Part shown: positions 1 through 10,015 of the stretch, piece after piece
How positions within the stretch are numbered: position 1 is the first letter of the stretch
Layout of the letters: every line of letters begins with the position of its first letter
Assembly (NCBI GenBank): GCA_017613855.1
Contig: JAGACY010000245.1
Coordinates: forward strand, 1 to 10,015
Reading direction: 5' to 3'
DNA from: Pseudomonadota bacterium
GTDB lineage: Bacteria > Myxococcota > Bradymonadia > UBA4248
DNA: 10,015 nt
Notes under the pieces: generated by a model
What the model saw: the letters and a program-made list of their open reading frames with translations, nothing else
The model's database searches: none
What the model was told of the DNA's origin: nothing
Made by a program: the position numbers and the translations under genes

Positions 1-26
1 AATGCGAAATTATTTGAAAATCACCG

Positions 27-54
27 GTAGAGACGTTTCGCAAAACGTCTCTAC
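27..54. repeat. Perfect hairpin, GAGACGTT/AACGTCTC family
   Basis: A perfect inverted repeat: the 12-base arm GTAGAGACGTTT (27-38), a 4-base loop CGCA, and its exact complement AAACGTCTCTAC (43-54). No T-tract follows, so it is not a typical terminator. A second, weaker member with GACGTTCC/GGAACGTC arms lies at 9091-9108. Similar AGACGTT...AACGTCT hairpins are, from general knowledge, common dispersed intergenic repeats in several bacterial phyla. I infer a small mobile or dispersed palindromic repeat. Confidence 0.8.
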
Positions 55-73
55 TTACGGTTTTGTCATCCCC

Positions 74-109
74 AATTGCGCATTGCGCATTGCTCATTGC
101 TAATTAAAT
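74..109. repeat. Heptamer array GCGCATT (4 units, degenerating)
   Basis: AATT at 74-77 is followed by four 7-base units: GCGCATT, GCGCATT, GCTCATT, GCTAATT (78-105), then AAAT. This is the reverse complement of the AATGCGC word used in the arrays at 4125-4156 and 4291-4315. The units drift from left to right, each changed by one base from the one before. Confidence 0.85.
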
Positions 110-110
110 C

Positions 111-134
111 GCGCGGCGTATGCAATAGCCGCGC
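111..134. repeat. Bulged hairpin, copy 1 (GTAT...ATA family)
   Basis: GCGCGGC (111-117) pairs with GCCGCGC (128-134). Inside it, an unpaired G118 precedes TAT, and ATA closes the other side around the short core GCA. It shares GCGGCGTAT and ATAGCCGCGC with the copy at 9967-9997. It is the first half of a back-to-back pair with 136-171. Confidence 0.8.
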
Positions 135-135
135 T

Positions 136-171
136 GCGCATGGCGTATCCCCCTAAGGGGATAGCCTGCGC
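136..171. repeat. Bulged hairpin, copy 2 (GTAT...ATA family)
   Basis: GCGCA (136-140) pairs with TGCGC (167-171) and GGC (142-144) with GCC (164-166). G145 is unpaired, then TATCCCC (146-152) pairs with GGGGATA (157-163) around the loop CTAA. The frame matches copy 1, but the inner stem is CCCC/GGGG. It begins one base after copy 1 ends. Confidence 0.82.
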
Positions 172-337
172 CCCAACAATATCCATTTTATTATAGCACA
201 AAAATCCCCTTTTTACACTGACAATTCCCACGTGATAAATCCTGTTGCCCACACTTGCCTACATTGGGGATTTTGGTTTAAACATTTTGCGTCGGCGTTC
301 AGTAGAATGTGGCATTTATTTTGGGGTATGCATGCAG

Positions 338-364
338 GCAGCTTATACGGCGTATAACGTCTGC
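338..364. repeat. Palindrome TTATACG-G-CGTATAA with outer stem
   Basis: TTATACG (343-349) and CGTATAA (351-357) are exact reverse complements around one G. An outer GCAG (338-341) / CTGC (361-364) pair extends it as a hairpin with a 1:3 internal loop. It could be a dimeric regulator's operator about 210 bp before nrdJ, or a diverged relative of the GTAT...ATA hairpin family. The sequence does not decide between these. Confidence 0.5.
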
Positions 365-403
365 TTCGCACTTACATTCTGGTTCACAAGACAATGATGC
401 ACT

Positions 404-428
404 GCGCATTGCCAATTGAACATTAAAT
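404..428. repeat. Degenerate heptad array
   Basis: GCGCATT (404-410), GCCAATT (411-417) and GAACATT (418-424), then AAAT, keep the 7-base spacing with ATT in the last three places. The first unit is identical to the units at 78-91. This looks like a decayed array of the same kind. Confidence 0.5.
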
Positions 429-569
429 TTCACCCCCAATTGGAGAGAGGTGTTGCGGCATGTCTCTGCATTTGCCACTTTCTTTAAATTCAAAAGGTAC
501 TGAATTCAAAGCACTTTGCCTTGGGACTGCAAAATCTAACGATTAACCACTCACAACCAACGACTAGAA

Positions 570-3500
570 ATGCAATTCACACGAATCTTCACAGCCAATC
601 TTTCCAATCCTCTCGAAGGCATCGAATTCGAAACCCGCACGAGCCAACTGCGAAATATCGATGGTACCTCCGGTTCCCAATCCATTTTGATCAAAGTCCC
701 GAGCGACTGGTCACAGATGGCGTCCGACATTCTGGCTCAGAAATACGTGCGGAAAGCCGACATTCCTGCGGCAACAAAACGCATTCCCGAAGCCGGCATC
801 GAACCCTGGCTGCAGCGCAGCATGCCCGATCGCGAAATACTCGATTCGATGGATGAATCATCGCGGTTTGGCGCCGAAACGGACGCGCGTCAGATTTTCC
901 ACCGCATCGCCGGATGCTGGGCATACTGGGGCGTCAAAACCGGTACATTTGATGATGCAAATGCTCACATTTTTTATGACGAAATGGTCTATTTGCTTGC
1001 CCACCAGATGGCGGCCCCCAACTCCCCGCAGTGGTTCAATACCGGCCTGAACTGGGCTTACGGCATTTCGCGCCCGCAGCGCGGACATTTCCGTGTCAAT
1101 CCCGAAACCAAGGTTTGCGAGGAAGTGCTCGATCCCTACGAGTATCCGCAGGCACATGCTTGCTTTATCCAGTCGGTCAAAGACGATTTGTGCGGCAAAG
1201 ACGGCATCATGGATTTGTGGCAGAAAGAAGCACGACTGTTCAAATTCGGTTCGGGAACGGGAACGAATTTTTCCAAAATACGCGGTTTCGACGAGCCACT
1301 TTCATGTGGTGGAAAATCCTCGGGATTGCTCAGTTTTCTGCAGATCGGCGATGCCGCAGCCGGTGCCATCAAATCGGGTGGGACGACGCGCCGTGCCGCC
1401 AAAATGGTCTGCCTCGATGCCGACCATCCCGATATCGAATCGTTCATCCGCTGGAAACGTACTGAAGAAGAAAAGGTCGCTGCACTCGTTACTGGCTCCC
1501 AGATTACACACAAATACGTCGAGCAAATGAAATCCGACGTGGCCGGTGCCAAAGCGGAGCTGAATGAAGGCGCAGCCGATCCGCATCAGAACAAAGCACT
1601 GCGCACCACCTTGAGGGACGCCGTCAAAGCCGGTGTGCCCGAGCCACTGCTCTATCGGACGCTGCTGGCGCTTCAGACCGGCAGTCCCATGCCCGAAATC
1701 AAAACGTTCGATGCCTCATGGGAAGGCAATGCCTATCAGAGCGTCGGCGGCCAGAATGCCAACAATTCCGTGCGTCTCAATGCCAAATTTATGGATGCCC
1801 TCGAGCATGACGGTCTTTGGTCACTCACACGCCGCACCGACGGCTCCGTCTCGCGCACGATTCGCGCCCGCGAACTGTGGGATGAAATCGCTTACAACGC
1901 CTGGGCCTGCGCCGATCCCGGCATCCAGTTCGACACGACGATCAACGACTGGCACACCTGCCCGCAGTCAGGCCCCATCCGCGCCAGCAATCCATGCTCC
2001 GAATTCATGTTCCTCGACAATTCGGCATGTAACCTCGCGTCCATCAATCTCGTCAAATTCCAGACACCTGATGGTAAATTTGATTCTGATAAATTCGAAG
2101 CCGCTGTCATTTTATATACCGCTGCACTCGACATCACCGTCACGATGGCACAGTACCCCAGTGAAGAAATCGCGCGCCAGAGCTACCTGTTCAGACCGCT
2201 CGGCCTCGGGTTTGCCAATCTCGGTTCGCTCTGCATGCGCTTTGGATTCCCTTACGACTCCCCACAGGCAAGGGCGCTCGCTGCCGCCATTTCGGGCCAT
2301 GCCACAGCCGTCTGCTATCGTACAAGCGCACTTCTGGCCCGCGATTTGGGCACCTTTGACGGCTATGAAGTCAATGCCGCCGACATGAAGCGCGTCCTGC
2401 GCAACCACCGCCGTGCAGCTTATCTCGCACCGCGCGATGCTTACGAATCCCTCAGTGTCCCGCCATCCATGCCACCCGAGACAGCATTCGACCGCGATCT
2501 CTTGCATCGCTCACAAAAAACATGGGACGAAGTCATCAAGCTCGGCGATGAATACGGTTTTAGAAATGCCCAGGTCACATGCCTGGCCCCGACAGGTACC
2601 ATCGGTCTGTTGATGGATTGCGACACGACGGGCGTCGAACCCGATTTTGCGCTCGTCAAATTTAAAAAACTCGTGGGCGGCGGCTATTTCCGCATTATTA
2701 ACACCGCCATTCCCGAAGCACTGCACCGCCTTGGGTATTCGCAGGAACAAATCGACGACATCAGCCACCATATTCTGGGCCATGCCACACTCAAAGGTGC
2801 ACCCGGTGTTCATCACGATGCACTTCGCATGCTCGGTTTTGACACAGCTGCACTCGACAATATCGAAAATGCACTCAAATCGGCATTCGATATCCACTTT
2901 GCAGTCGCACCCTATGTCGTCGGGCGAGATTTCTGTAAAAATCGCCTCAAAGCGACCGATGCACAATTGGACGATCCCAATTTCGATTTGCTGACGTTCC
3001 TCGGGTTCACCCCCAACCAGATTGCACAGGCAAATCGCTATGCCTTTGGTACCATGACCATCGAAGGCGCACCGCATCTCAAACCCGAGCATCTGGCCGT
3101 TTTCGATTGTGCCAACCGCTGCGGTGAGCTGGGAACGCGCTTTATTCCCGCACTTGCACATGTCACAATGATGGCTGCCATTCAGCCGTTGATTTCGGGT
3201 GCCATCTCCAAAACCATCAATTTCCCGGGCGATGCATCGGTACACGATATCGAGCGCATGCACCTGTCCGCCTACAAAATGGGGCTCAAAGCCATTGCCA
3301 TTTACCGCGATGGTTCCAAGCTCTGCCAACCACTCAACTCGACCAAAGTCTTCGATTTCGAATCCATCGCCGAAGAAGAAGAAACTGCTCCGCAGCCTGC
3401 CGAAACCAAAGAACCAACTGGCGCGCCCCATGCCAACCGTCGTAAACTTCCGTCGAGACGCAGCGGTTACACACAAAAAGCCTCGCTCAATCAGAATAAT

Positions 3501-4097
3501 ATTTACCTGAGAACCGGCGAATATGCCGACGGTTCGCTGGGAGAAATCTTCATCGACATGCACAAGGAAGGCGCAGCATTCCGAAGCCTCATGAACTGCT
3601 TTGCCATCGCCGTCAGTCTCGGTCTTCAGCATGGCGTGCCCCTCGAAGAATACGTCGATGCCTTTGTATTTACGCGATTTGAACCTTCCGGGCCTGTGGC
3701 CGGCCACTCGACCATCAAATTCGCAACATCCATTATCGACTACATTTTTAGGGAACTTGGCATTACCTACCTGGGCAAAACCGAACTGGCACATGTCAAC
3801 CCAGACAATTTGCCCGACAATGAGGATGACAACGAATTCTCAGTGCCTTATCTGCCCGGATTCGAAGGCCGCCGCACACCGCATCACTTGTCCAGTGCAA
3901 CACCTGCCAATCAGCAGCCGTCTGCAAATTCACGCCCAGAGTCGCACCGCCACAGCGAATCCCGCGATAGCCGCACCATTGCGCGTCTCAAAGGCTATGA
4001 GGGTGACCCCTGCCCCGAATGCGGCAATTTCACGATGCTCCGCAACGGAACATGCCTCAAATGCGACAGCTGCGGCGCTACGAGCGGATGCTCTTAA
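570..4097 (+). CDS. nrdJ: Vitamin B12-dependent (class II) ribonucleoside-diphosphate reductase
   Basis: Cytoplasmic class II ribonucleotide reductase, which makes deoxyribonucleotides using an adenosylcobalamin-derived thiyl radical and no oxygen. The 1175-residue length fits the large NrdJ subfamily. The N-terminal part (1-80) has the family WSQxASDILAQKY segment. The ten-stranded barrel carries the redox pair C198 (HACFIQSV) and C487 (SACNLASINL). The radical site is NPCSEF, with N474, C476 and E478. The loop PTGTIG is at 674-679 and GGQNANNS at 393-400. A hydrophilic linker (about 928-970) leads to a TSCPD-type domain (about 975-1065). A second linker leads to a C-terminal Cys cluster (C1148, C1151, C1162, C1165, C1168, C1174), probably metal binding or a thioredoxin-facing shuttle. 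The ATG at 570 gives the usual N-terminus but has no visible Shine-Dalgarno. No second reductase subunit or nrdR is nearby. Confidence 0.97.
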   Translation: MQFTRIFTANLSNPLEGIEFETRTSQLRNIDGTSGSQSILIKVPSDWSQMASDILAQKYVRKADIPAATKRIPEAGIEPWLQRSMPDREILDSMDESSRFGAETDARQIFHRIAGCWAYWGVKTGTFDDANAHIFYDEMVYLLAHQMAAPNSPQWFNTGLNWAYGISRPQRGHFRVNPETKVCEEVLDPYEYPQAHACFIQSVKDDLCGKDGIMDLWQKEARLFKFGSGTGTNFSKIRGFDEPLSCGGKSSGLLSFLQIGDAAAGAIKSGGTTRRAAKMVCLDADHPDIESFIRWKRTEEEKVAALVTGSQITHKYVEQMKSDVAGAKAELNEGAADPHQNKALRTTLRDAVKAGVPEPLLYRTLLALQTGSPMPEIKTFDASWEGNAYQSVGGQNANNSVRLNAKFMDALEHDGLWSLTRRTDGSVSRTIRARELWDEIAYNAWACADPGIQFDTTINDWHTCPQSGPIRASNPCSEFMFLDNSACNLASINLVKFQTPDGKFDSDKFEAAVILYTAALDITVTMAQYPSEEIARQSYLFRPLGLGFANLGSLCMRFGFPYDSPQARALAAAISGHATAVCYRTSALLARDLGTFDGYEVNAADMKRVLRNHRRAAYLAPRDAYESLSVPPSMPPETAFDRDLLHRSQKTWDEVIKLGDEYGFRNAQVTCLAPTGTIGLLMDCDTTGVEPDFALVKFKKLVGGGYFRIINTAIPEALHRLGYSQEQIDDISHHILGHATLKGAPGVHHDALRMLGFDTAALDNIENALKSAFDIHFAVAPYVVGRDFCKNRLKATDAQLDDPNFDLLTFLGFTPNQIAQANRYAFGTMTIEGAPHLKPEHLAVFDCANRCGELGTRFIPALAHVTMMAAIQPLISGAISKTINFPGDASVHDIERMHLSAYKMGLKAIAIYRDGSKLCQPLNSTKVFDFESIAEEEETAPQPAETKEPTGAPHANRRKLPSRRSGYTQKASLNQNNIYLRTGEYADGSLGEIFIDMHKEGAAFRSLMNCFAIAVSLGLQHGVPLEEYVDAFVFTRFEPSGPVAGHSTIKFATSIIDYIFRELGITYLGKTELAHVNPDNLPDNEDDNEFSVPYLPGFEGRRTPHHLSSATPANQQPSANSRPESHRHSESRDSRTIARLKGYEGDPCPECGNFTMLRNGTCLKCDSCGATSGCS

Positions 4098-4104
4098 TCT
4101 GTGC

Positions 4105-4156
4105 GGAATGCGGAATTGTTTTTTAATGCGCAATGCGCAATGCGCAATGCGCAATT
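4105..4156. repeat. Repeat block A copy 1: GGAATGCGGAATT plus AATGCGC x4
   Basis: GGAATGCGGAATT (4105-4117), a G, a T-run, then four exact AATGCGC units (4125-4152) closed by AATT (4153-4156). It starts 8 bases after the nrdJ stop. The same layout recurs at 4272-4315 with three units, and a fragment resembling its left part opens the window (1-15). Confidence 0.88.
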
Positions 4157-4183
4157 GAATCGCAATTCTCCAATAGAATAGAC

Positions 4184-4204
4184 ACGCCTGGAAGGCGTTT
4201 TATT
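4184..4204 (+). terminator. Possible rho-independent terminator of nrdJ
   Basis: ACGCCT (4184-4189) can pair with AGGCGT (4193-4198) around a GGA loop, and the right arm runs into TTTTATT. The stem is short but GC-rich, and it lies 87 bp past the nrdJ stop and ahead of the Omp85 gene. I infer a weak terminator separating the two transcription units. Confidence 0.5.
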
Positions 4205-4216
4205 CGTAAAAAATAG

Positions 4217-4241
4217 CCGGGTGTGCCGCAGGCGCGCCCGG
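4217..4241. repeat. GC-rich hairpin with GCC-GCA-GGC core
   Basis: CCGGGTGTGCC (4217-4227) pairs with GGCGCGCCCGG (4231-4241) around GCA: an 11-bp stem if two G-T pairs are allowed. Its core TGCCGCAGGCG also occurs, on the other strand, in the hairpin at 8977-9011, so the two may share an origin. It lacks the bulged G/GTAT frame. No T-tract follows. Confidence 0.6.
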
Positions 4242-4271
4242 ATCGGAATGAATGTGCAATGGGCTGTGAAG

Positions 4272-4315
4272 GGAATGCGGAATTATTTTTAATGCGCAAT
4301 GCGCAATGCGCAATT
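4272..4315. repeat. Repeat block A copy 2: GGAATGCGGAATT plus AATGCGC x3
   Basis: GGAATGCGGAATT (4272-4284), an A, a T-run, three AATGCGC units (4291-4311) and closing AATT (4312-4315). It is a near-exact direct repeat of 4105-4156, 167 bp downstream, with one heptamer fewer and a shorter T-run. Confidence 0.88.
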
Positions 4316-4358
4316 AAAAGACTTTATTCTTTAGAAATACCATTGGGAATGTCACAAT

Positions 4359-4394
<36 letters not shown>

Positions 4395-4404
4395 CACGCT
4401 CATG

Positions 4405-4432
4405 ATGCATTACTCATTACTAATTACAGATT
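4405..4432. repeat. Degenerate heptad array (ATGCATT, ACTCATT, ACTAATT, ACAGATT)
   Basis: Four 7-base units with ATT at the end of each. The middle two differ by one base, as do the matching units at 92-105 (GCTCATT, GCTAATT). It ends directly in the A-rich run before the Omp85 gene, so it may also supply promoter sequence. Confidence 0.6.
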
Positions 4433-4437
4433 AAAAT
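4410..4437 (+). promoter_or_regulatory. Weak candidate promoter for the Omp85 operon
   Basis: TTACTC (4410-4415) and TAAAAT (4432-4437) are spaced 16 bases apart, 44 bases before the Omp85 start. Both hexamers are imperfect and lie in a repeat array, so this is a tentative sigma-70-like match only. Confidence 0.22.
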
Positions 4438-4469
4438 GTTATCATTCCCCCTTGGTTTGAACCATCCGT

Positions 4470-4483
4470 GAGGTCGGGGTTTG
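4470..4483 (+). promoter_or_regulatory. Ribosome binding site deciding the TTG start of the Omp85 gene
   Basis: GAGG at 4470-4473 lies 7 bases before TTG at 4481. An in-frame TGA at 4469-4471 blocks any earlier start. A rival ATG at 4517 has AGGTG at 4508-4512, so both starts have support. TTG is preferred because it adds Lys and Arg to the signal-peptide n-region. Confidence 0.5.
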
Positions 4484-7400
4484 CAGGATAATCAAAAACT
4501 AAAAATCAGGTGTCACATGCTGGCGGCTATTGCCGCCATTGCCTTGCTATGCCCTGTTTTACCTGCTTCCGCACAGGATTCCAATCCACCGCAAAATCTT
4601 GCCGGAGATACCTATTTCGACTTCGCATTCCGGGATGAGAAAAACATCATTCAGCACAAAATATTGGGCCAAAACCGCGAAGAAATGCTCGCCCAATCCA
4701 ATGATGATACACCTCAGAATGATGAAGAAGAGTCTGACGATCATTCGGATAATCCTGAGGTAACCCCATCTGATGGGATTGGCCAGACTTCTTCGGGTAA
4801 TGGACTCACATCAGCGAATGAAGATACTACGGATGAACCATCAGACAAGGATTCCCCTACTGAACAGACGAATTCCCCTACTGAACAGACGGATTCCCCA
4901 ACTGAACAGACGGATTCCCCAACTGAGCTGACAGATTCCTCAACAAAGCAGACGGATTTCCCAACTGAACAGACGGATTCCTCAACAAAGCAGACGGATT
5001 TGCCAACTGAGTTGACAGATTCTTCAACAGATCAGACGGATTCCTCAACTGAACAGAATGAAGAATCGCCGCTTGCCAGGCTAAAACGCACGGATATTGT
5101 TACCTATCGTGTGGCCGACTTGACGATCGATTGTGACCTCAAATACTGTGAAGATAAGGAAAATGTCGAAAAATTACTGCGTGCTACCGGACTGCAGCTG
5201 GGGCATGAAACGACTAACGTCGATCTGGCGATTTCGATCGAGCGCCTCAGAAAAACGCGTTATTTTTCCAATATTTTTCAGGAACTGACGTTCGAAGGAA
5301 AAGACAGGGTCAAAGTTCATTTTCGTACCGTACCTCACACGGTTATTCGAAAAGTCATTATCGAAAAAAGCGGTTCGCTTTATAAATCGGAAGTCAAAAA
5401 ACGCATGATATTGCGCCCGGGCGGTATTCTCTACCCCAGGACAGCTATCTTGCGCGGAATGACAGTCGACGAAATTCCCAAAGAAAAACTCATTACCATG
5501 GCGCTCGAAGACCAAATCAAAAGTCTCGAACGCATCTACAGCAAAGAGGGATATTTCGACGCCGAAGTGACCATCACAACCACGGAAGTTGAACCCAATC
5601 TCGTGGATCTGCACGTCAGCGTCAACAACGCCGAAAGCTATGTCCTTGGGCAAATTTATGTGCGAGGGCATTCGATAAAATCCTATTCCGAGATAGAAGA
5701 TACATTCCGTTCCGGATTTGGTTTCTTTGGCGGTGTTACCAAAGCAGAAATAGAAGACGCCGTCGAAAAAGTTCTTCAGGAATACCGCAAGGACGGATAC
5801 TACCAGACGAAAATTGAATTCGTCTCCCGGCGCGTTCCCGAAAAGAAAACCGTCGATGTCTTTCTCGATATCAAAGAATCCGTACAATGGGATGTCCAAT
5901 TCGAAGGCAATGAAGTTCTTTCCGCAAAAGAACTCGCGGAATCATTGACGTTCGAGAGTTCCGGATACGTCGATCACAGTGAAGTCGAAGCCTCTGCCGA
6001 AGCACTGCAGCAAGCCTATATTTCTGCCGGTTATTATTGGGCACAAGTCACTGGCGAGATGCTTTCGAGCTACGCCAACGGAACGCACGTCATAATTTTT
6101 AAGATAAAGGAAGGCGAACGCGCAGAAATCGGTCAGATTTCTTTTGCCGGTGCATCCGCGATTTCTCATGATGAACTCATGAACATCATCAGCAGCACCG
6201 AATACTCTGCCTTTGGTTCCGGGGCATATCCTCAGCGTTCGATGATTGCAGATGACGCCGCCAATATTGTCGATGCCTACAGGGAAATCGGCTACCTCAA
6301 TGCGGATGTCACCGGCTGGACACTCGAACCCCTCAACCCCAACGGCCGTCTCCTGCTTACATTCATCATCCATGAGGGCGAACGTTCGCACTTTGCACAT
6401 CGGCAGATTCGCTATACAGACCGCGAAACTTATGACCGTTTTGATGTCCTCATCGATAAACCCGAGAATGATATTTTCAGCGATTCGACCTTCAGAACTG
6501 AGCGTGCTGCCATTACCAAACAACTGCGCGCCCGTGGACATGCCACCATCTCAGATCGCGTCCGATGCACATCCTACGCATCCGATGGCAGCATTGCGAG
6601 TACAGATACCTGCGAAATTGCCGATTTCTCAAGTGCATGCCTCCCCGATGACCTCGTCGCCATGTGTGAATTCATCGAAACCAGAAATGGCACCATGGAA
6701 CGATGTAAACGCCATTTTGATACCGAATACGGCATCGAAGGCGAACCCAAATGCGAACTGCAAAATGGCGTCACCGGAACCGAAGTCGACGTCGAATACG
6801 AAGTCACACTCGGCCCCAAATACTCATTCGGAGATACCTTTATACACGGCAATGTCGTCACCAGAGAGTGGGTCGTCAATCAGGACATCCCTTTCAAAGC
6901 AGACGAAACATTCGATTATAACCGCGTCATTGATGCACGAAGTCTCTTAAGACGCCGTACCATCTATTCATCGGCATCTCTCAATGTCATTGGCGTCGAC
7001 GATGATCTCACAACCCAATCCGAAAGCGGCGATTCGACGTCCACGACCGAACGCCCCGTCCCCATTGTCGTCACACTCGAAGAAGGGGAACGAAGATGGT
7101 TCGATTTCGCACTCGGCTTGCAGTATACCGGCGGTGACTGGATCGCCACTGGCGAAGTCGAATATGTCGAAGCCAATCTCCTTGGCACCGGCTGGCAGCT
7201 CTCACTCCTGCTCATGCCCGAAGCGCGCATCTTTAAAGGAAGCCAGTTCGTCCTCAATCAAAAACTCAATCAAAACTTCTTTACCCTGCTCTCCCTGACG
7301 ATCCCCGTCATTCCGGCAAGCGGATTCAATATTATTTCCCAGTGGTTTTACGATCTCAGGTTCATCCCCAAAACCAACAAGGAAGAATTGGGATGGCTCG

Positions 7401-8218
7401 TCGAACTCCAGTGGCAGCTCAATAAAGCATGGTTTACGGCACTTGCATTCGAGCTCGAATCCTCATCCACGGCTTCGGCTGTCGACGAAAACACGAGTTA
7501 CAGTGCATGCTATCCATTTACTTTTTTCTACGGGAAATGCCCATTCGACAACAACAGCGCGCTCTTCACGGTTTCGATCACGCCACGGGCCAGTTACGAT
7601 GGCCGCGATAACCCACTCACCCCAAAATACGGCGTCTTTGCCGAAGCCAAAGTCAAATTTGCATATGCAGACAACGTCGGCTTCTATGTCAAACCTGAAG
7701 CACATGCTTCCTTCGTCTATACTTTTTGGAAATATTTCACACTCGCCTTTAATATGCGATTCGGAGTCAGCTTCCTCAAAGATAATTCTGAGCTGCCCTA
7801 CATCGATCGCTATTTCCTGGGCGGTTTGAATATGCGTGGTTACGAAGACGAAGCACTCGGACCTCGGCTCATCAACGATATTGCCCCAACCGTTGCCACC
7901 GATGAAGCTGGCGGCGGCGAAGTTTTGTTCAATTTTACAACCGAAATCCGATACCCAATTTGGAATGATATCGGCCTGTATGGCGCCTTATTTGTCGATA
8001 TGGGAGCACTCACACCCTATCAGCCAACAAATTATTCACCGGGCGCATTTGCTGAGGAACTTTTTGTCAACCAAATGCGTTATACTGCAGGGATGGGATT
8101 GAGATGGCTCATTAGCGAAGCAATCCCTCCCATCGTGCTGGATTACGGTTTTATCATCAATCGCCGGCGCGGCGACCCAATCGGAGGGTTCAGTATCAAT
8201 GTCGGCTATACCTTCTAA
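4481..8218 (+). CDS. Omp85-family outer membrane assembly protein (BamA/TamA-like), about seven POTRA domains
   Basis: Outer-membrane barrel protein of the Omp85 superfamily, which inserts or assembles other outer-membrane proteins. Residues 1-32 form a signal peptide (KLKIR, hydrophobic core, ASA-QD cleavage). Residues 33-123 are acidic and probably disordered; 124-193 are ten heptapeptides of the form DSPTEQT. POTRA-like units follow at about 205-285, 286-382, 385-465, 468-545, 548-633, 635-778 and 780-868. Units 2-5 show the Y-x3-GY-x3-V pattern (YSKEGYFDAEV, YISAGYYWAQV); units 1, 6 and 7 are more divergent. Unit 6 carries an insertion with six Cys. The barrel (about 870-1245) has MRGY at 1118-1121, the conserved lid-loop motif, FVDMG at 1171-1175 and a C-terminal Phe. 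It is longer than E. coli BamA (about 810 residues, five POTRAs). It overlaps the next gene by 20 bases. Whether it is the main BamA or a dedicated paralogue is not decidable here. Confidence 0.93.
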   Translation: MQDNQKLKIRCHMLAAIAAIALLCPVLPASAQDSNPPQNLAGDTYFDFAFRDEKNIIQHKILGQNREEMLAQSNDDTPQNDEEESDDHSDNPEVTPSDGIGQTSSGNGLTSANEDTTDEPSDKDSPTEQTNSPTEQTDSPTEQTDSPTELTDSSTKQTDFPTEQTDSSTKQTDLPTELTDSSTDQTDSSTEQNEESPLARLKRTDIVTYRVADLTIDCDLKYCEDKENVEKLLRATGLQLGHETTNVDLAISIERLRKTRYFSNIFQELTFEGKDRVKVHFRTVPHTVIRKVIIEKSGSLYKSEVKKRMILRPGGILYPRTAILRGMTVDEIPKEKLITMALEDQIKSLERIYSKEGYFDAEVTITTTEVEPNLVDLHVSVNNAESYVLGQIYVRGHSIKSYSEIEDTFRSGFGFFGGVTKAEIEDAVEKVLQEYRKDGYYQTKIEFVSRRVPEKKTVDVFLDIKESVQWDVQFEGNEVLSAKELAESLTFESSGYVDHSEVEASAEALQQAYISAGYYWAQVTGEMLSSYANGTHVIIFKIKEGERAEIGQISFAGASAISHDELMNIISSTEYSAFGSGAYPQRSMIADDAANIVDAYREIGYLNADVTGWTLEPLNPNGRLLLTFIIHEGERSHFAHRQIRYTDRETYDRFDVLIDKPENDIFSDSTFRTERAAITKQLRARGHATISDRVRCTSYASDGSIASTDTCEIADFSSACLPDDLVAMCEFIETRNGTMERCKRHFDTEYGIEGEPKCELQNGVTGTEVDVEYEVTLGPKYSFGDTFIHGNVVTREWVVNQDIPFKADETFDYNRVIDARSLLRRRTIYSSASLNVIGVDDDLTTQSESGDSTSTTERPVPIVVTLEEGERRWFDFALGLQYTGGDWIATGEVEYVEANLLGTGWQLSLLLMPEARIFKGSQFVLNQKLNQNFFTLLSLTIPVIPASGFNIISQWFYDLRFIPKTNKEELGWLVELQWQLNKAWFTALAFELESSSTASAVDENTSYSACYPFTFFYGKCPFDNNSALFTVSITPRASYDGRDNPLTPKYGVFAEAKVKFAYADNVGFYVKPEAHASFVYTFWKYFTLAFNMRFGVSFLKDNSELPYIDRYFLGGLNMRGYEDEALGPRLINDIAPTVATDEAGGGEVLFNFTTEIRYPIWNDIGLYGALFVDMGALTPYQPTNYSPGAFAEELFVNQMRYTAGMGLRWLISEAIPPIVLDYGFIINRRRGDPIGGFSINVGYTF
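4850..5059 (+). repeat. 21-bp tandem repeat encoding ten DSPTEQT-like heptapeptides
   Basis: Inside the Omp85 gene, residues 124-193 are ten consecutive 7-residue units: DSPTEQT and variants such as DSSTKQT, DFPTEQT, DLPTELT and DSSTDQT. At the DNA level this is an in-frame 21-bp minisatellite. It lies between the signal peptide and the first POTRA, so it would be a periplasmic, hydrophilic, low-complexity linker. The first four units are nearly identical and later ones have drifted, suggesting recent expansion at one end. Confidence 0.92.
8183..8201 (+). promoter_or_regulatory. Ribosome binding site for the GspH-like gene inside the Omp85 gene
   Basis: GGAGGG (8183-8188) precedes ATG at 8199 by about 10 bases, within the last codons of the Omp85 gene. 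The overlap of 20 bases predicts translational coupling. Confidence 0.65.
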
Positions 8219-8933
8219 AAATAATGCCCTTAGAAAGGGCATGACCCTCATGGAAATCATGATCGTGCTCGTCATCATGGCCACAATCATGGCACTGGGG
8301 GCTTATGGATTCGGATTCCTCGGGGCTGCCGATGTACGTGGTGATGCACTCAAACTCAGCTCCTCTATTCGATATATCTTTAATATGGCTGCCACTTCAA
8401 ACGCCACACTACAAATGCAGTTCGATTTCGACGAACAATCCTTCATCATCGAGCAACTCGATGTCAATGGCGGACTCAGTAACGAGGAACTCAGCGGCAC
8501 AACGATGAAAGCCAAACAATCCGGTTCTATGAACAAAAGACCGGATCGCGTCGATCGCCTCGATGATGAGGATTCCAAATTCGGAAAAGTCACTCGCACC
8601 ACCGTCGAAAAATTATCAGCCTGGGACAACTATAGCGACAACGAGGATGAGTCTAATCCTACCTATAAACTCTCCGACGGCGTCTTTTTTATTGGCCTCA
8701 TGACATCCCATCATGACGAAATTCAAACCGAAGGCATCGGAACCATCAACTTCTTTGCCAACGGTTTTGTCGAGCGCAGCGTCATCATTCTCGGAGACGA
8801 ACTCGCCAAAGAAGGCAGCGACGGCGCCACTTATTATTCCATTTCACTCAACCCACTCACCGGACAATCTTCGGTCACACCCGGTTACATGGAAATCTCA
8901 TCGACTTTCTTCGAAGAGGAAGAAGATCGATAA
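8199..8933 (+). CDS. Type IV pilin-like pseudopilin, GspH/FimT-like
   Basis: Inner-membrane prepilin destined for a type II secretion pseudopilus or a related type IV-like filament. The 14-residue leader ends in RKG. Predicted prepilin peptidase cleavage is after G14, leaving mature MTLMEIMIVL with Glu at +5 (E19). The +1 residue is Met instead of the usual Phe. A hydrophobic helix covers about 15-37. The segment VRGDALKLSSSIRYIF (46-61) and the ending YSISLNPLTG (213-222) fit the GspH family. Residues 110-160 form an acidic, Asp/Glu-rich insertion. At 244 residues it is longer than many GspH proteins (about 170-200). The start overlaps the Omp85 stop by 20 bases and has an internal ribosome binding site, so the two are probably co-translated. 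FimT or another minor pilin is the main alternative. Confidence 0.85.
   Translation: MSAIPSKNNALRKGMTLMEIMIVLVIMATIMALGAYGFGFLGAADVRGDALKLSSSIRYIFNMAATSNATLQMQFDFDEQSFIIEQLDVNGGLSNEELSGTTMKAKQSGSMNKRPDRVDRLDDEDSKFGKVTRTTVEKLSAWDNYSDNEDESNPTYKLSDGVFFIGLMTSHHDEIQTEGIGTINFFANGFVERSVIILGDELAKEGSDGATYYSISLNPLTGQSSVTPGYMEISSTFFEEEEDR
8226..8240 (+). repeat. Small perfect hairpin in the GspH-like leader codons
   Basis: GCCCTT (8226-8231), loop AGA, AAGGGC (8235-8240). It lies 8 bases past the Omp85 stop and within the codons for the prepilin leader. No T-tract follows. It may be chance, or a hairpin affecting expression across the gene junction. Confidence 0.4.
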
Positions 8934-8942
8934 CACGCCTAT

Positions 8943-8971
8943 TTTTTCTATAATCTCTTTTTTCTTATAAT
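8943..8971 (+). promoter_or_regulatory. T-rich tract with two TATAAT hexamers
   Basis: TATAAT occurs at 8949-8954 and 8966-8971, inside a repeated TTTTTTCT(TA)TAAT pattern in the spacer after the GspH-like gene. Neither has a good TTGACA at the right distance. It could be a weak internal promoter for the GspI-like gene, or simply AT-rich spacer. Confidence 0.25.
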
Positions 8972-8976
8972 AGATG

Positions 8977-9011
8977 CCCGGCCTATCCGCCTGCGGCAAA
9001 TACGGCCTGGG
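8977..9011. repeat. Bulged hairpin, copy 3 (reverse orientation)
   Basis: CCCGGCC (8977-8983) pairs with GGCC (9004-9007) and GGG (9009-9011). TAT pairs with ATA, next to an unpaired C9003, which is the complement of the G bulge in the other copies. The inner part is CCGCCTGCGG with a small right-side bulge. Read on the minus strand it has the frame G-TAT...ATA, as in copies 1 and 2. Confidence 0.7.
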
Positions 9012-9039
9012 TGCGCGCCTATCTGCAATACGGCGCGCA
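9012..9039. repeat. Bulged hairpin, copy 4 (reverse orientation)
   Basis: TGCGCGCC (9012-9019) pairs exactly with GGCGCGCA (9032-9039). TA/TA pairs follow, with unpaired C9031 and a small loop. It begins on the base after copy 3 ends, making a second back-to-back pair, this time in the opposite orientation to the pair at 111-171. Confidence 0.78.
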
Positions 9040-9090
9040 ATCTTTGATTCTTTGCATTTCCCTCATTTTCCCCATAATTCTCTTTGTACT

Positions 9091-9108
9091 GACGTTCCAT
9101 GGAACGTC
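9091..9108. repeat. Palindrome GACGTTCCATGGAACGTC
   Basis: A perfect 18-bp palindrome. With its flanks (GTACT on the left, TCTCC on the right) it aligns with the hairpin at 27-54, so it is a second, partly decayed member of that family. It contains an ATG (9099-9101) in frame with the GspI-like gene, which makes that earlier start doubtful. Confidence 0.75.
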
Positions 9109-9134
9109 TCTCCCGCATTTCCCTCATTCAGCGC

Positions 9135-9935
9135 ATGAAACTCAAAGGCTTTACATTGCTCGAACTGATGATCGCGATTTTCATTCTCGCTTTGTCAGTG
9201 ACGATCCTTTTGGGAACGCAGAATACTTCTATGCGCATGATGGGGTATGCCAATAACACGGCTGTCGTGACCATGCTCACGAGAGCCAAAATGCAGGACA
9301 TCGAATACGAAGTTCAGCGCCAGATTGCTGACGAAGGCATCAAAGAAGATTACGTCAACACCATCGACGGAGATTTCCGTGATGAAGGCTACGATGATAT
9401 CTCCTGGTCAGCACTCATCCAATCCATCGAACTCTCCGATGATGCCGCCAACAATTTCGTCGAAAGCGTCACCAACCAGATCTACGGCACCGGCGATGAA
9501 GACGGTACATTAAGCGGCAATACGACGATCACCCAGTTCCTCCCCATGATGGTCAGCTTCCTGCCAACCATCATTAACCAGCTCGGCCAGCGCATCCGAA
9601 AAATCACCCTCACCACGACATGGGATTATCTCGGCGTCGAGCAAACGCTGACAGTCTCACAGTTTGTCGTCGTACTCGAAGTCGATGCCGCCTCGGGTGC
9701 AAGTGGTTCTTCGGTCACCAATTCCGGCAAGGAAGCCGAAGATACGCCCGACGATACCAATTCTGATTCCGATTCCAAAACAGATTCCAAATCCAAAAAG
9801 TCGGGATCCAAATCAGACAGTAAAAAAGAACCCGAAAAAATCAGCGGAAAAACCCGATCCTTAAAATCACACGGTTCCACCCCGAATGCATCCGCACCAT
9901 CACCCCCCAGTCAGACAGGAGGCCCCAATGGCTAA
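9135..9935 (+). CDS. Type II secretion minor pseudopilin, GspI-like, with long low-complexity tail
   Basis: Inner-membrane pseudopilin. From ATG 9135 the leader is only MKLKG, cleaved before F6, giving mature FTLLELMIAIFILAL with Glu at +5 (E10). The segment RIRKITLTTTWDYLGVEQTLTV (154-173, with flanks) matches the GspI pattern of a basic residue, beta strand and conserved Trp. Residues 60-130 are an acidic insertion, and 184-266 are a Gly/Ser/Asp then Lys/Ser tail. Total length is 266 residues, against about 120-130 for ordinary GspI. An in-frame ATG at 9099 would add 12 residues but sits in a repeat palindrome; neither start has a Shine-Dalgarno. The gene follows the GspH-like gene by 201 bp, in the usual H-I order of gsp operons, and its end overlaps the next coding region by 8 bases. 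It might also be a generic PulG-like minor pilin. Confidence 0.82.
   Translation: MKLKGFTLLELMIAIFILALSVTILLGTQNTSMRMMGYANNTAVVTMLTRAKMQDIEYEVQRQIADEGIKEDYVNTIDGDFRDEGYDDISWSALIQSIELSDDAANNFVESVTNQIYGTGDEDGTLSGNTTITQFLPMMVSFLPTIINQLGQRIRKITLTTTWDYLGVEQTLTVSQFVVVLEVDAASGASGSSVTNSGKEAEDTPDDTNSDSDSKTDSKSKKSGSKSDSKKEPEKISGKTRSLKSHGSTPNASAPSPPSQTGGPNG
9684..9932 (+). other. Low-complexity C-terminal tail of the GspI-like protein
   Basis: Residues 184-266 begin with DAASGASGSS, pass through acidic DTPDDTNSDSDSK, then Lys/Ser-rich KSKKSGSKSDSKKEPEK, and end in Pro/Ser/Gly. No folded domain is recognisable. It would lie in the periplasm at the free end of the pseudopilin. Confidence 0.75.
9917..9930 (+). 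promoter_or_regulatory. Strong Shine-Dalgarno for the next coding region
   Basis: AGGAGG (9917-9922) lies 5 bases before ATG 9928. This is the best ribosome binding site in the window, and it sits inside the last codons of the GspI-like gene. Confidence 0.75.
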
Positions 9936-10015
9936 AACACATCACTTCTGGCATCTCATGGGGGGAGCGGCGTATGACCATAAGGTCATAGCCGCGCGGG
10001 GGGAAAATGAGGTAT
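9928..10015 (+). CDS. Start of next gene in the operon (partial), possibly GspJ-like
   Basis: An open frame starts at ATG 9928, overlaps the GspI-like stop by 8 bases, and stays open to the window end (29 codons, MAKTHHFWHLMGG then AAYDHKVIAARGENEV). No prepilin leader or membrane segment appears in what can be seen. Codons 14-24 are supplied by the hairpin at 9967-9997. By gene order (H, I, then J) a GspJ pseudopilin is expected here, but that is inference. An alternative start, ATG 10007 in another frame, follows a six-G run. The frame at 9928 could then be a short leader peptide. Confidence 0.4.
   Translation, partial: MAKTHHFWHLMGGAAYDHKVIAARGENEV
9960..10004. repeat. Bulged hairpin, copy 5, flanked by 7-bp direct repeats
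   Basis: GCGGC (9967-9971) pairs with GCCGC (9991-9995). G9972 is unpaired, then TATGACC pairs with GGTCATA around the loop ATAA. Its two ends, GCGGCGTAT and ATAGCCGCGC, are identical to those of copy 1. GGGGGGA occurs exactly at 9960-9966 and 9998-10004, directly flanking the 31-base element like a target-site duplication. Confidence 0.82.

Follow-up and report, generated by a model that had tools for sequence, protein, structure and literature searches.

Introduction

Repetitive extragenic palindromic (REP) sequences are defined by a GT[A/G]G tetranucleotide plus a palindrome (PMC3686654, PMC3733652). Each tnpA_REP gene is paired with its own REP family; the GT[A/G]G consensus is absent from the REPs of some Y1 subclasses, and REPs with a bulged hairpin are also known (PMC6006769). 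Of the two strands, TnpA_REP of E. coli binds one, in folded form, and it requires the bulge (PMC8266576). In REPINs the ends are conserved, and compensatory changes accompany the variation of a paired spacer (PMC3116915), and replication template switching is able to create and maintain perfect stems (PMC8794818). We describe here a family of bulged hairpins found in a 10,015-nucleotide stretch of DNA from a Pseudomonadota bacterium (assembly GCA_017613855.1, contig JAGACY010000245.1, positions 1 to 10,015; hereafter the window). A reading of the window made from its letters without database searches (the sequence-only reading) had proposed that five hairpins within it belong to one family, shaped by selection on a folded single strand as in REP-type elements moved by REP-associated tyrosine transposases (RAYTs).

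The family resembles REPs and their TnpA_REP/RAYT systems in being made of short palindromes with many intergenic copies; its stems are bulged, as in some REP families, and in REPs one strand is recognised, as proposed here. It differs in that simple copies have no GT[A/G]G foot, that no cognate Y1 gene was found, that within a genome most copies have different stems, and that neighbours are direct and not inverted. We therefore class it as REP-like and not as REP, because the simple copies lack the foot while the bulge, the single-strand logic and the placement are shared with REPs; no enzyme moving it was found. Conserved ends, a variable inner part in which pairing is kept, and dispersal are shared with REPINs, but a REPIN consists of two REPs in inverted orientation (spaced 71 or 110 bp in the case described), whereas here there is one bulged hairpin with a TAT/ATA frame, and of 120 close neighbours 115 share one orientation. 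CGTC-tagged repeats are alike in having 8-9 bp stems and no reported association with transposase genes (PMC3733652); unlike them, the present family keeps a GTAT/ATA frame and a long variable inner stem and has no flanking position conserved above 0.25 bit (the CGTC tag itself was not searched for).

Described REP families keep a consensus sequence, whereas here the bulged frame, the arm length and the pairing are kept in up to about 1000 copies per genome. It can therefore be tested how a palindromic repeat changes its sequence and yet remains paired, and whether repeats folding in single-stranded DNA need a RAYT in order to spread. The attC sites of integrons, which carry GTTRRRY / RYYYAAC boxes, also keep structure with free sequence, an extrahelical base and strand choice.

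Abundance among related genomes

Related genomes were found by alignment of the BamA/Omp85-like outer membrane protein encoded in the window, which gave 11 loci. Nine of these (L001-L009), matching at 57-94%, belong to eight related genomes (G001-G008), among them UBA4248 (94% in the best segment), and two (L010, L011) are distant (28% and 24%). One homologous protein carries the label Bradymonadales. All eight are metagenome-assembled genomes (MAGs) of unstated completeness, and their BamA similarity suggests that they form one clade. The host group consists of little-studied bacteria, several from animal guts; the sources named in four of the eight records are buffalo rectum, roe deer omasum, goat omasum and cattle colon.

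Using the pattern GCGTATN{3,20}ATAGC we found 979, 866, 1051, 790, 267, 810, 540 and 802 copies in G001 to G008, respectively, compared with 79, 121, 140, 32, 17, 96, 54 and 79 for the reversed pattern as control. The 87 other relatives had at most 29 copies each, mostly no more than their own control, with the highest count in G070 (29 versus a control of 14). A covariance model built from 40 copies, none taken from the window (R1), gave 102-148 matches per 150 scored candidates in each of the eight genomes and no match in nine of nine other relatives. Among the 95 genomes, the repeat is restricted to the eight related ones. The sequence-only reading had proposed such a covariance-model search and had taken a genome with only the few copies of the window as evidence against the family; the 267 to 1051 copies in every one of the eight genomes speak for it. 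It had also recognised no named family, and Rfam agreed, with no match at the window hairpins, tRNAs only at 7 related loci, and nothing to E 0.5 at 11 composite loci (see below). The repeat was not found described in the literature searched, most subscription journals lying outside its coverage.

For closer analysis two samples were used, one of 40 stretches plus the window (720 kb) and one of 40 new stretches (782 kb). Because the sampled contigs came mostly from earlier hit lists, the densities do not represent a random sample. Copies were picked by CGTAT...ATAG plus the next base pair, giving 200 in sample 1 and 182 in sample 2, and these positions therefore count as no evidence; seven control cores gave 2-37 and 1-38 copies.

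A variable stem within a fixed frame

From the outside inwards, copies have a GC-rich outer stem (8 bp at most), a single unpaired G, a TAT/ATA stem, an inner stem of free sequence and a short loop. In the class with 11 bases inside the frame (40 copies), the inner pairs 15/25, 16/24 and 17/23 were formed in all 40 copies, and in 21, 12 and 16 of them, respectively, both partners had changed. The covariation score was 0.484 in this first set, compared with 0.120 in shuffles, and 0.450 in a second set (13-base class), compared with 0.125; none of 500 shuffles was as high in either set, and the score also exceeded that of all slid versions in both classes. The shuffle leaves relatedness among copies in place. 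Compensatory change with pairing kept, as claimed from the sequence alone, is thus supported in two sets. A total of 245 distinct cores were found among the 320 copies outside called genes.

The outer pairing extends to position 8 in 78 of 174 copies (50 expected) and in 69 of 146 copies in sample 2 (42 expected), while pairing at position 9 falls under expectation (25 versus 44, and 28 versus 34). Neighbouring copies were 15-19 nt apart in 60 of 67 cases (41 of 53 in sample 2), a spacing at which two 8-nt arms abut, and 64 of 67 close neighbours (51 of 53 in sample 2) were oriented alike. The flanks of the strand bearing the bulged G are A-rich and T-poor, and no position outside the stem was conserved above 0.25 bit.

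Constraint on one strand

Mismatches were unevenly distributed between the strands. On the bulged-G strand, G.A exceeded C.T mismatches by 112 to 12 at outer positions 3-7 (74 to 10 in sample 2) and by 34 to 0 at inner positions 1-4 (18 to 1). Tandem GA/GA mismatches numbered 17 outer and 15 inner in sample 1 and 16 in sample 2, where no CT/CT or TC/TC was observed. Loops of three bases (n=203) were GNA in 109 cases and TNC in 6. With C.T rare beside G.A, and with GNA and not TNC loops, the strand bearing the bulged G is the constrained strand. GNA loops are reported to be very stable in DNA (Yoshizawa 1997, as cited in PMC6479982).

The orientation of copies did not follow gene direction, with 58 sense and 50 antisense in sample 1 and 39 and 53 in sample 2 (97 and 103 in total). 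Because the constrained strand ignores gene direction, we infer that the active form is single-stranded DNA rather than a transcript. For the proposed selection on a folded single strand, the kept pairing and the strand-asymmetric mismatches and loops are observed, and single-stranded DNA as the active form is the inferred part.

Most copies were observed outside called genes (174 of 200 and 146 of 182, stretch-end copies included), although non-coding DNA makes up just about 24% and 16% of the two samples; this agrees with the intergenic mapping expected from the sequence alone; gene calls came from a purpose-made caller and the counts are approximate. In gaps between co-directional genes the copies were nearer the 3' end of the upstream gene in 69 of 108 and 67 of 92 cases, and divergent gaps had the fewest per kb (0.85 and 0.63, versus 1.48-2.12). 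No T-run was found 3' of the hairpin (T 5-13% at +9 to +14); like the lack of gene-wise orientation, this sets the family apart from intrinsic terminators.

Identical cores in neighbouring copies

Neighbouring copies shared their cores more often than distant ones. In sample 1, cores were identical in 9 of 64 neighbours compared with 0.6% of distant pairs, while the likeness of neighbouring arms (0.49) was near that at random (0.475). Sample 2 gave identical cores in 7 of 51 neighbours versus 22 of 2054 distant pairs (7 of 36 versus 6 of 1424 for cores of at least 16 nt), with an arm likeness of 0.52 versus 0.48 at random. Across both samples, cores of at least 16 nt were identical in 13 of 78 neighbouring and 20 of 5979 distant pairs. 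Where the left arms were no more than 5/8 alike, identical cores occurred in 8 of 67 versus 16 of 5399 pairs (Fisher p 2e-10; 3 of 2000 resamplings reach 8). Core sharing between neighbours is statistically clear but rests on these 8 pairs. Cores and arms behave separately, which may record template switching or hairpin-specific recombination in nature.

Dispersed composite elements

A composite form, GGGGG-hairpin-GGGGG-loop-CCCCC, was observed in 24 copies in the sampled stretches and related loci, some with an extra GC hairpin in front. At its foot 16 of the 24 copies carry GTAG (12) or GTCG (4). One composite copy of G003 matched 23 contigs of G002 at 71-98% identity (40 of 444 candidates scored); genes at these places were mostly 71-86% identical between the two genomes, with one block at 95%. 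We fetched 17 of the places in G002, of which 15 fit the composite pattern and 14 its strict form. The 14 strict composites were 93% identical in the left block and 97% in the right, while their outer flanks were 28% and 35% identical. Such dispersed, near-identical composites with unrelated flanks are the best evidence for spread, and suggest that the composite may be mobile.

The 14 composites had 10 distinct tips of 10-37 nt. Eight tips have an AGCC/GGC stem with a differing loop, five a longer palindrome within that base and one another stem; wholesale replacement of the tip as a general rule was rejected, since the eight differ in the loop alone. Two of the tips (L114, L118) contain the AGAGACGT palindrome, and a third (L119) a similar but less clear one, as found at window positions 25-54. 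Four closely alike composites of G001 include three with a TTTGC/GCAAA stem and other loops and one with a different stem. A subclass of the composites of G002, G003, G004 and G006 keeps an internal loop like CGCGCA/GAGCA beneath the variable tip.

An exact-pattern composite with the front GC hairpin was also observed before a baseplate gene on a 43-kb predicted phage contig (L164, 2210-2293), where it was the sole match in that viral collection; the longest frame of the baseplate gene overlaps it. Two inverted composites lie about 6 kb apart in L009 (3262 and 9521) with nearly the same upstream flank, which suggests a segmental duplication. We rejected an autonomous element bounded by composites, since in L009, L089 and L090 the intervening frames look like ordinary cellular genes (by reading, with no family search).

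Candidate enzymes

A total of 14 matches to the Y1 domain (PF01797) were found in six of the eight genomes, with none in G002 and G004. A family hairpin lay within 300 bp of 7 of the 14 Y1 genes, compared with 246 of 668 called genes. The sequence-only reading had suggested looking for a Y1/RAYT gene flanked by the same hairpin, and no such gene was seen: a hairpin on both sides within 1 kb was observed for 0 of 14 Y1 genes versus 44 of 668 genes, a weak test, since about 1 kb is visible on each side for only 7 of the 14. We viewed the flanks of 11 Y1 genes and, by eye, 10 adjoin other palindromes; the eleventh (L052) has another palindrome upstream and three GTAT hairpins downstream. What stands of the proposed REP-type element moved by a RAYT is the REP-like placement and the asymmetric folding; the cognate RAYT was not found. 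In L052 and L054, Y1 domains lie in long frames with repeated palindromes coding for AGDAGVSPA-like units, resembling REPs inside coding frames.

None of 104 array starts carried the GT[A/G]G foot in the 3 nt next to the 8-bp stem; its complement followed 6 of 110 array ends. No integron integrase above the curated cut-off was found in the eight genomes; sub-threshold matches in seven of them are probably XerC/XerD. The Y2 transposase of IS91 was found in none of the eight, but as the control genomes had no match either, this is uninformative.

The five hairpins of the window

The top five of 20 listed matches of model R1 in the window are exactly the five hairpins of the sequence-only reading, the sixth having an E-value of 3.1. 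Hairpin 1 (111..134, plus strand; match 111-134, E 0.036) has arms GCGCGGC/GCCGCGC and core GTATGCAATA at 118-127, and stands in direct tandem with hairpin 2 (136..171, plus; match 135-173, E 5.2e-5), whose core at 145-163 has a CCCC/GGGG stem. Hairpin 3 (8977..9011, minus; core 8984-9003; match 8978-9009, E 0.016) is in direct tandem with hairpin 4 (9012..9039, minus; core 9020-9031; match 9010-9041, E 1e-4). Hairpin 5 (9960..10003, plus; match 9962-10000, E 1.2e-4) has its core at 9972-9990 between G runs at 9960-9965 and 9998-10003. The claimed unpaired G before TAT applies to the plus-strand copies; hairpins 3 and 4 lie on the minus strand, where the G before TAT holds for the complement only and the unpaired base on the plus strand is a C after ATA.

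Folded as single-stranded DNA, the pair 111-171 (z -5.3), 136-171 alone (z -3.7), 9012-9039 (z -3.7) and 9967-9997 (z -4.7) were better than dinucleotide shuffles, as was the pair 8977-9039 (z -2.8; 1 of 200 shuffles as good). Folding of 111-134 alone (z -1.45; 20 of 200) and of 8977-9011 alone (z -0.7; 39 of 200) was unremarkable.

All five hairpins are at the same sites in UBA4248. Hairpin 1 is the same there and hairpin 2 differs in its loop only; at hairpin 3 a G-C pair replaces G.T but the arm is poorer, and hairpins 4 and 5 each have one extra arm mismatch, which is drift. The site of hairpin 5 is shared by the window, L001, L002, L003 and L008, with the left flank and arm kept and inner stems of GACC/GGTC (window, L001), GGGC/GCCC (L002) and GGCC/GGCC (L003, L008). 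In L003 a second hairpin beside this site has an identical core, including a common change of ATA to AAA, and in L002 the two adjacent cores differ. The frame across hairpin 5 (window 9927-10015) is open and, by eye, enters a prepilin-like motif or gene in L001, L002, L003 and L008; because it continues into this gene, hairpin 5 may encode part of a leader peptide.

Discussion

Our preferred explanation, held tentatively and at a little under even confidence, is a lineage-specific REP-like family in which the bulged-G strand folds and is recognised by a cellular enzyme, composites are dispersed, and cores pass between neighbours. When a region becomes single-stranded, the bulged-G strand would fold into a form that this enzyme recognises, with the bulged G and the TAT/ATA frame distinguishing the folding strand from its near-palindromic complement. 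The enzyme would make new dispersed copies, chiefly in the composite form. Within arrays, cores would pass between neighbours, most simply via replication template switching at the GCGTAT/ATAGC frames, and with switching between these frames the arms would stay paired. Covariation and abundance are the firm parts of this explanation; strand asymmetry, array geometry, core sharing and the dispersed near-identical composites with varied tips are observed as well.

Several observations weigh against it. No enzyme could be linked to the family. All five window copies are unmoved in UBA4248, so no movement is visible over the closest distance on hand, and no empty site was found at three aligned G002/G003 places (upstream of bamA, at the end of L002/L003, where L002 runs out, and at one composite site), two being too diverged and one running off the contig end. 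The likeness of the G002 and G003 composites is equally compatible with recent spread or strong constraint. Pairs changed on both sides were not more numerous than in shuffles in the first set (485 of 500) or the second (139 of 500), nor was the count of pair types in the first set (350 of 500). Purine-rich arms predict most of the outer G.A mismatches (about 99 of 112 under independence), and the outer signal is therefore a shortage of C.T (12 versus about 43 expected, sample 1). The commonest outer double mismatches in sample 1 were shifted CG/GC and GC/CG and not tandem GA/GA, and over both samples the excess of G.T over A.C was only mild (61 to 44). Triloops of this kind are not specific to the family, as 44 of 103 other intergenic triloops were GNA or TNC, and these control hairpins weakened GNA triloops as a DNA-only signature. 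Among the 13 identical-core neighbours, 5 have arms at least 7/8 alike, as plain tandem duplication gives, and just 4 have arms no more than 4/8 alike, where random arms are about 0.48 alike.

The same data can be set against other explanations. Classical REPs moved by a Y1 RAYT, whose gene may be absent from the assemblies or lost, may have diverged beyond the reach of PF01797 or may have its flanks outside view, are a somewhat unlikely explanation that much of the placement would fit, with copies towards the 3'-end side of genes and fewest in divergent gaps. It also accords with the GTAG/GTCG foot of 16 of 24 composites, with the bulged REP type and the Y1 subclasses lacking GT[A/G]G (PMC6006769), with the kept ends and varied spacer of REPINs (PMC3116915), and with one side being cut short at 7 of 14 Y1 loci in MAGs. 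Against it, none of the 14 Y1 genes was seen to have the hairpin on each side, there is no clear enrichment within 300 bp (7 of 14 versus 37%) and, by eye, other palindromes lie beside Y1 genes; G002 and G004, which have no Y1 match, have 866 and 790 pattern copies; and simple copies lack the foot tetranucleotide and have direct, not inverted, neighbours. Less probable still is a single-strand DNA hairpin system outside the known RAYT/REP systems, in which the unpaired G and the TAT/ATA frame would be the recognition and exchange module of an enzyme that swaps cores between different stems and spreads the composite through chromosomes and phages.

A neutral by-product, in which replication template switching makes and repairs palindromes with no protein recognition, appears quite improbable. 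It would fit the capacity of template switching to form and preserve perfect stems (PMC8794818), the local sharing of cores and the palindromic longer tips, yet a process that perfects palindromes should also erase a single bulged G, which is kept, and by itself it does not explain the TAT/ATA frame, the arm length, the 267-1051 copies in these relatives only or the dispersed composites with unrelated flanks. We consider an element acting in RNA, such as an mRNA 3'-end hairpin or a processing or stability element, slightly more doubtful again: the bias towards the upstream gene's 3' end (69 of 108 and 67 of 92) is as such an element predicts, and palindromes would fold in transcripts from either strand, but there is no orientation bias (97 sense, 103 antisense) despite the strand-specific folding asymmetry, no T-run (T 5-13% at +9 to +14) and no Rfam match, and copies occur in divergent gaps too. 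Very remote is a kinship with integron attC sites, at which recombination uses a folded single strand carrying extrahelical bases; the logic of variable sequence, kept structure, extrahelical base and strand choice is the same, but no integron integrase above the curated cut-off was found in any of the eight genomes, and the copies are single or in short arrays, dispersed and not between cassettes.

Genes and other repeats of the window

The window contains a vitamin B12-dependent ribonucleotide reductase gene (570..4097, plus), the BamA/Omp85-like gene that served as query (4481..8218, plus) and two prepilin genes (8199..8933 and 9099..9935, both plus), which are part of a type II secretion-like operon. 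The best NCBIfam match of the former prepilin is GspH and the latter has weak XpsI/GspI matches, all below cut-off. Within the BamA-like gene, 21-base tandem repeats at 4807-5078 encode a TEQTDSP-like linker. A second type of palindrome (AGAGACGTT...AACGTCTCT) was observed at 25-54 and 9086-9111. Short intergenic tandem repeats of the AATGCGC/AATTCCG type are present at 73-105, 4120-4157, 4286-4314 and 4356-4393; they are reminiscent of cyanobacterial short tandem repeats, and many similar copies were found in G001.

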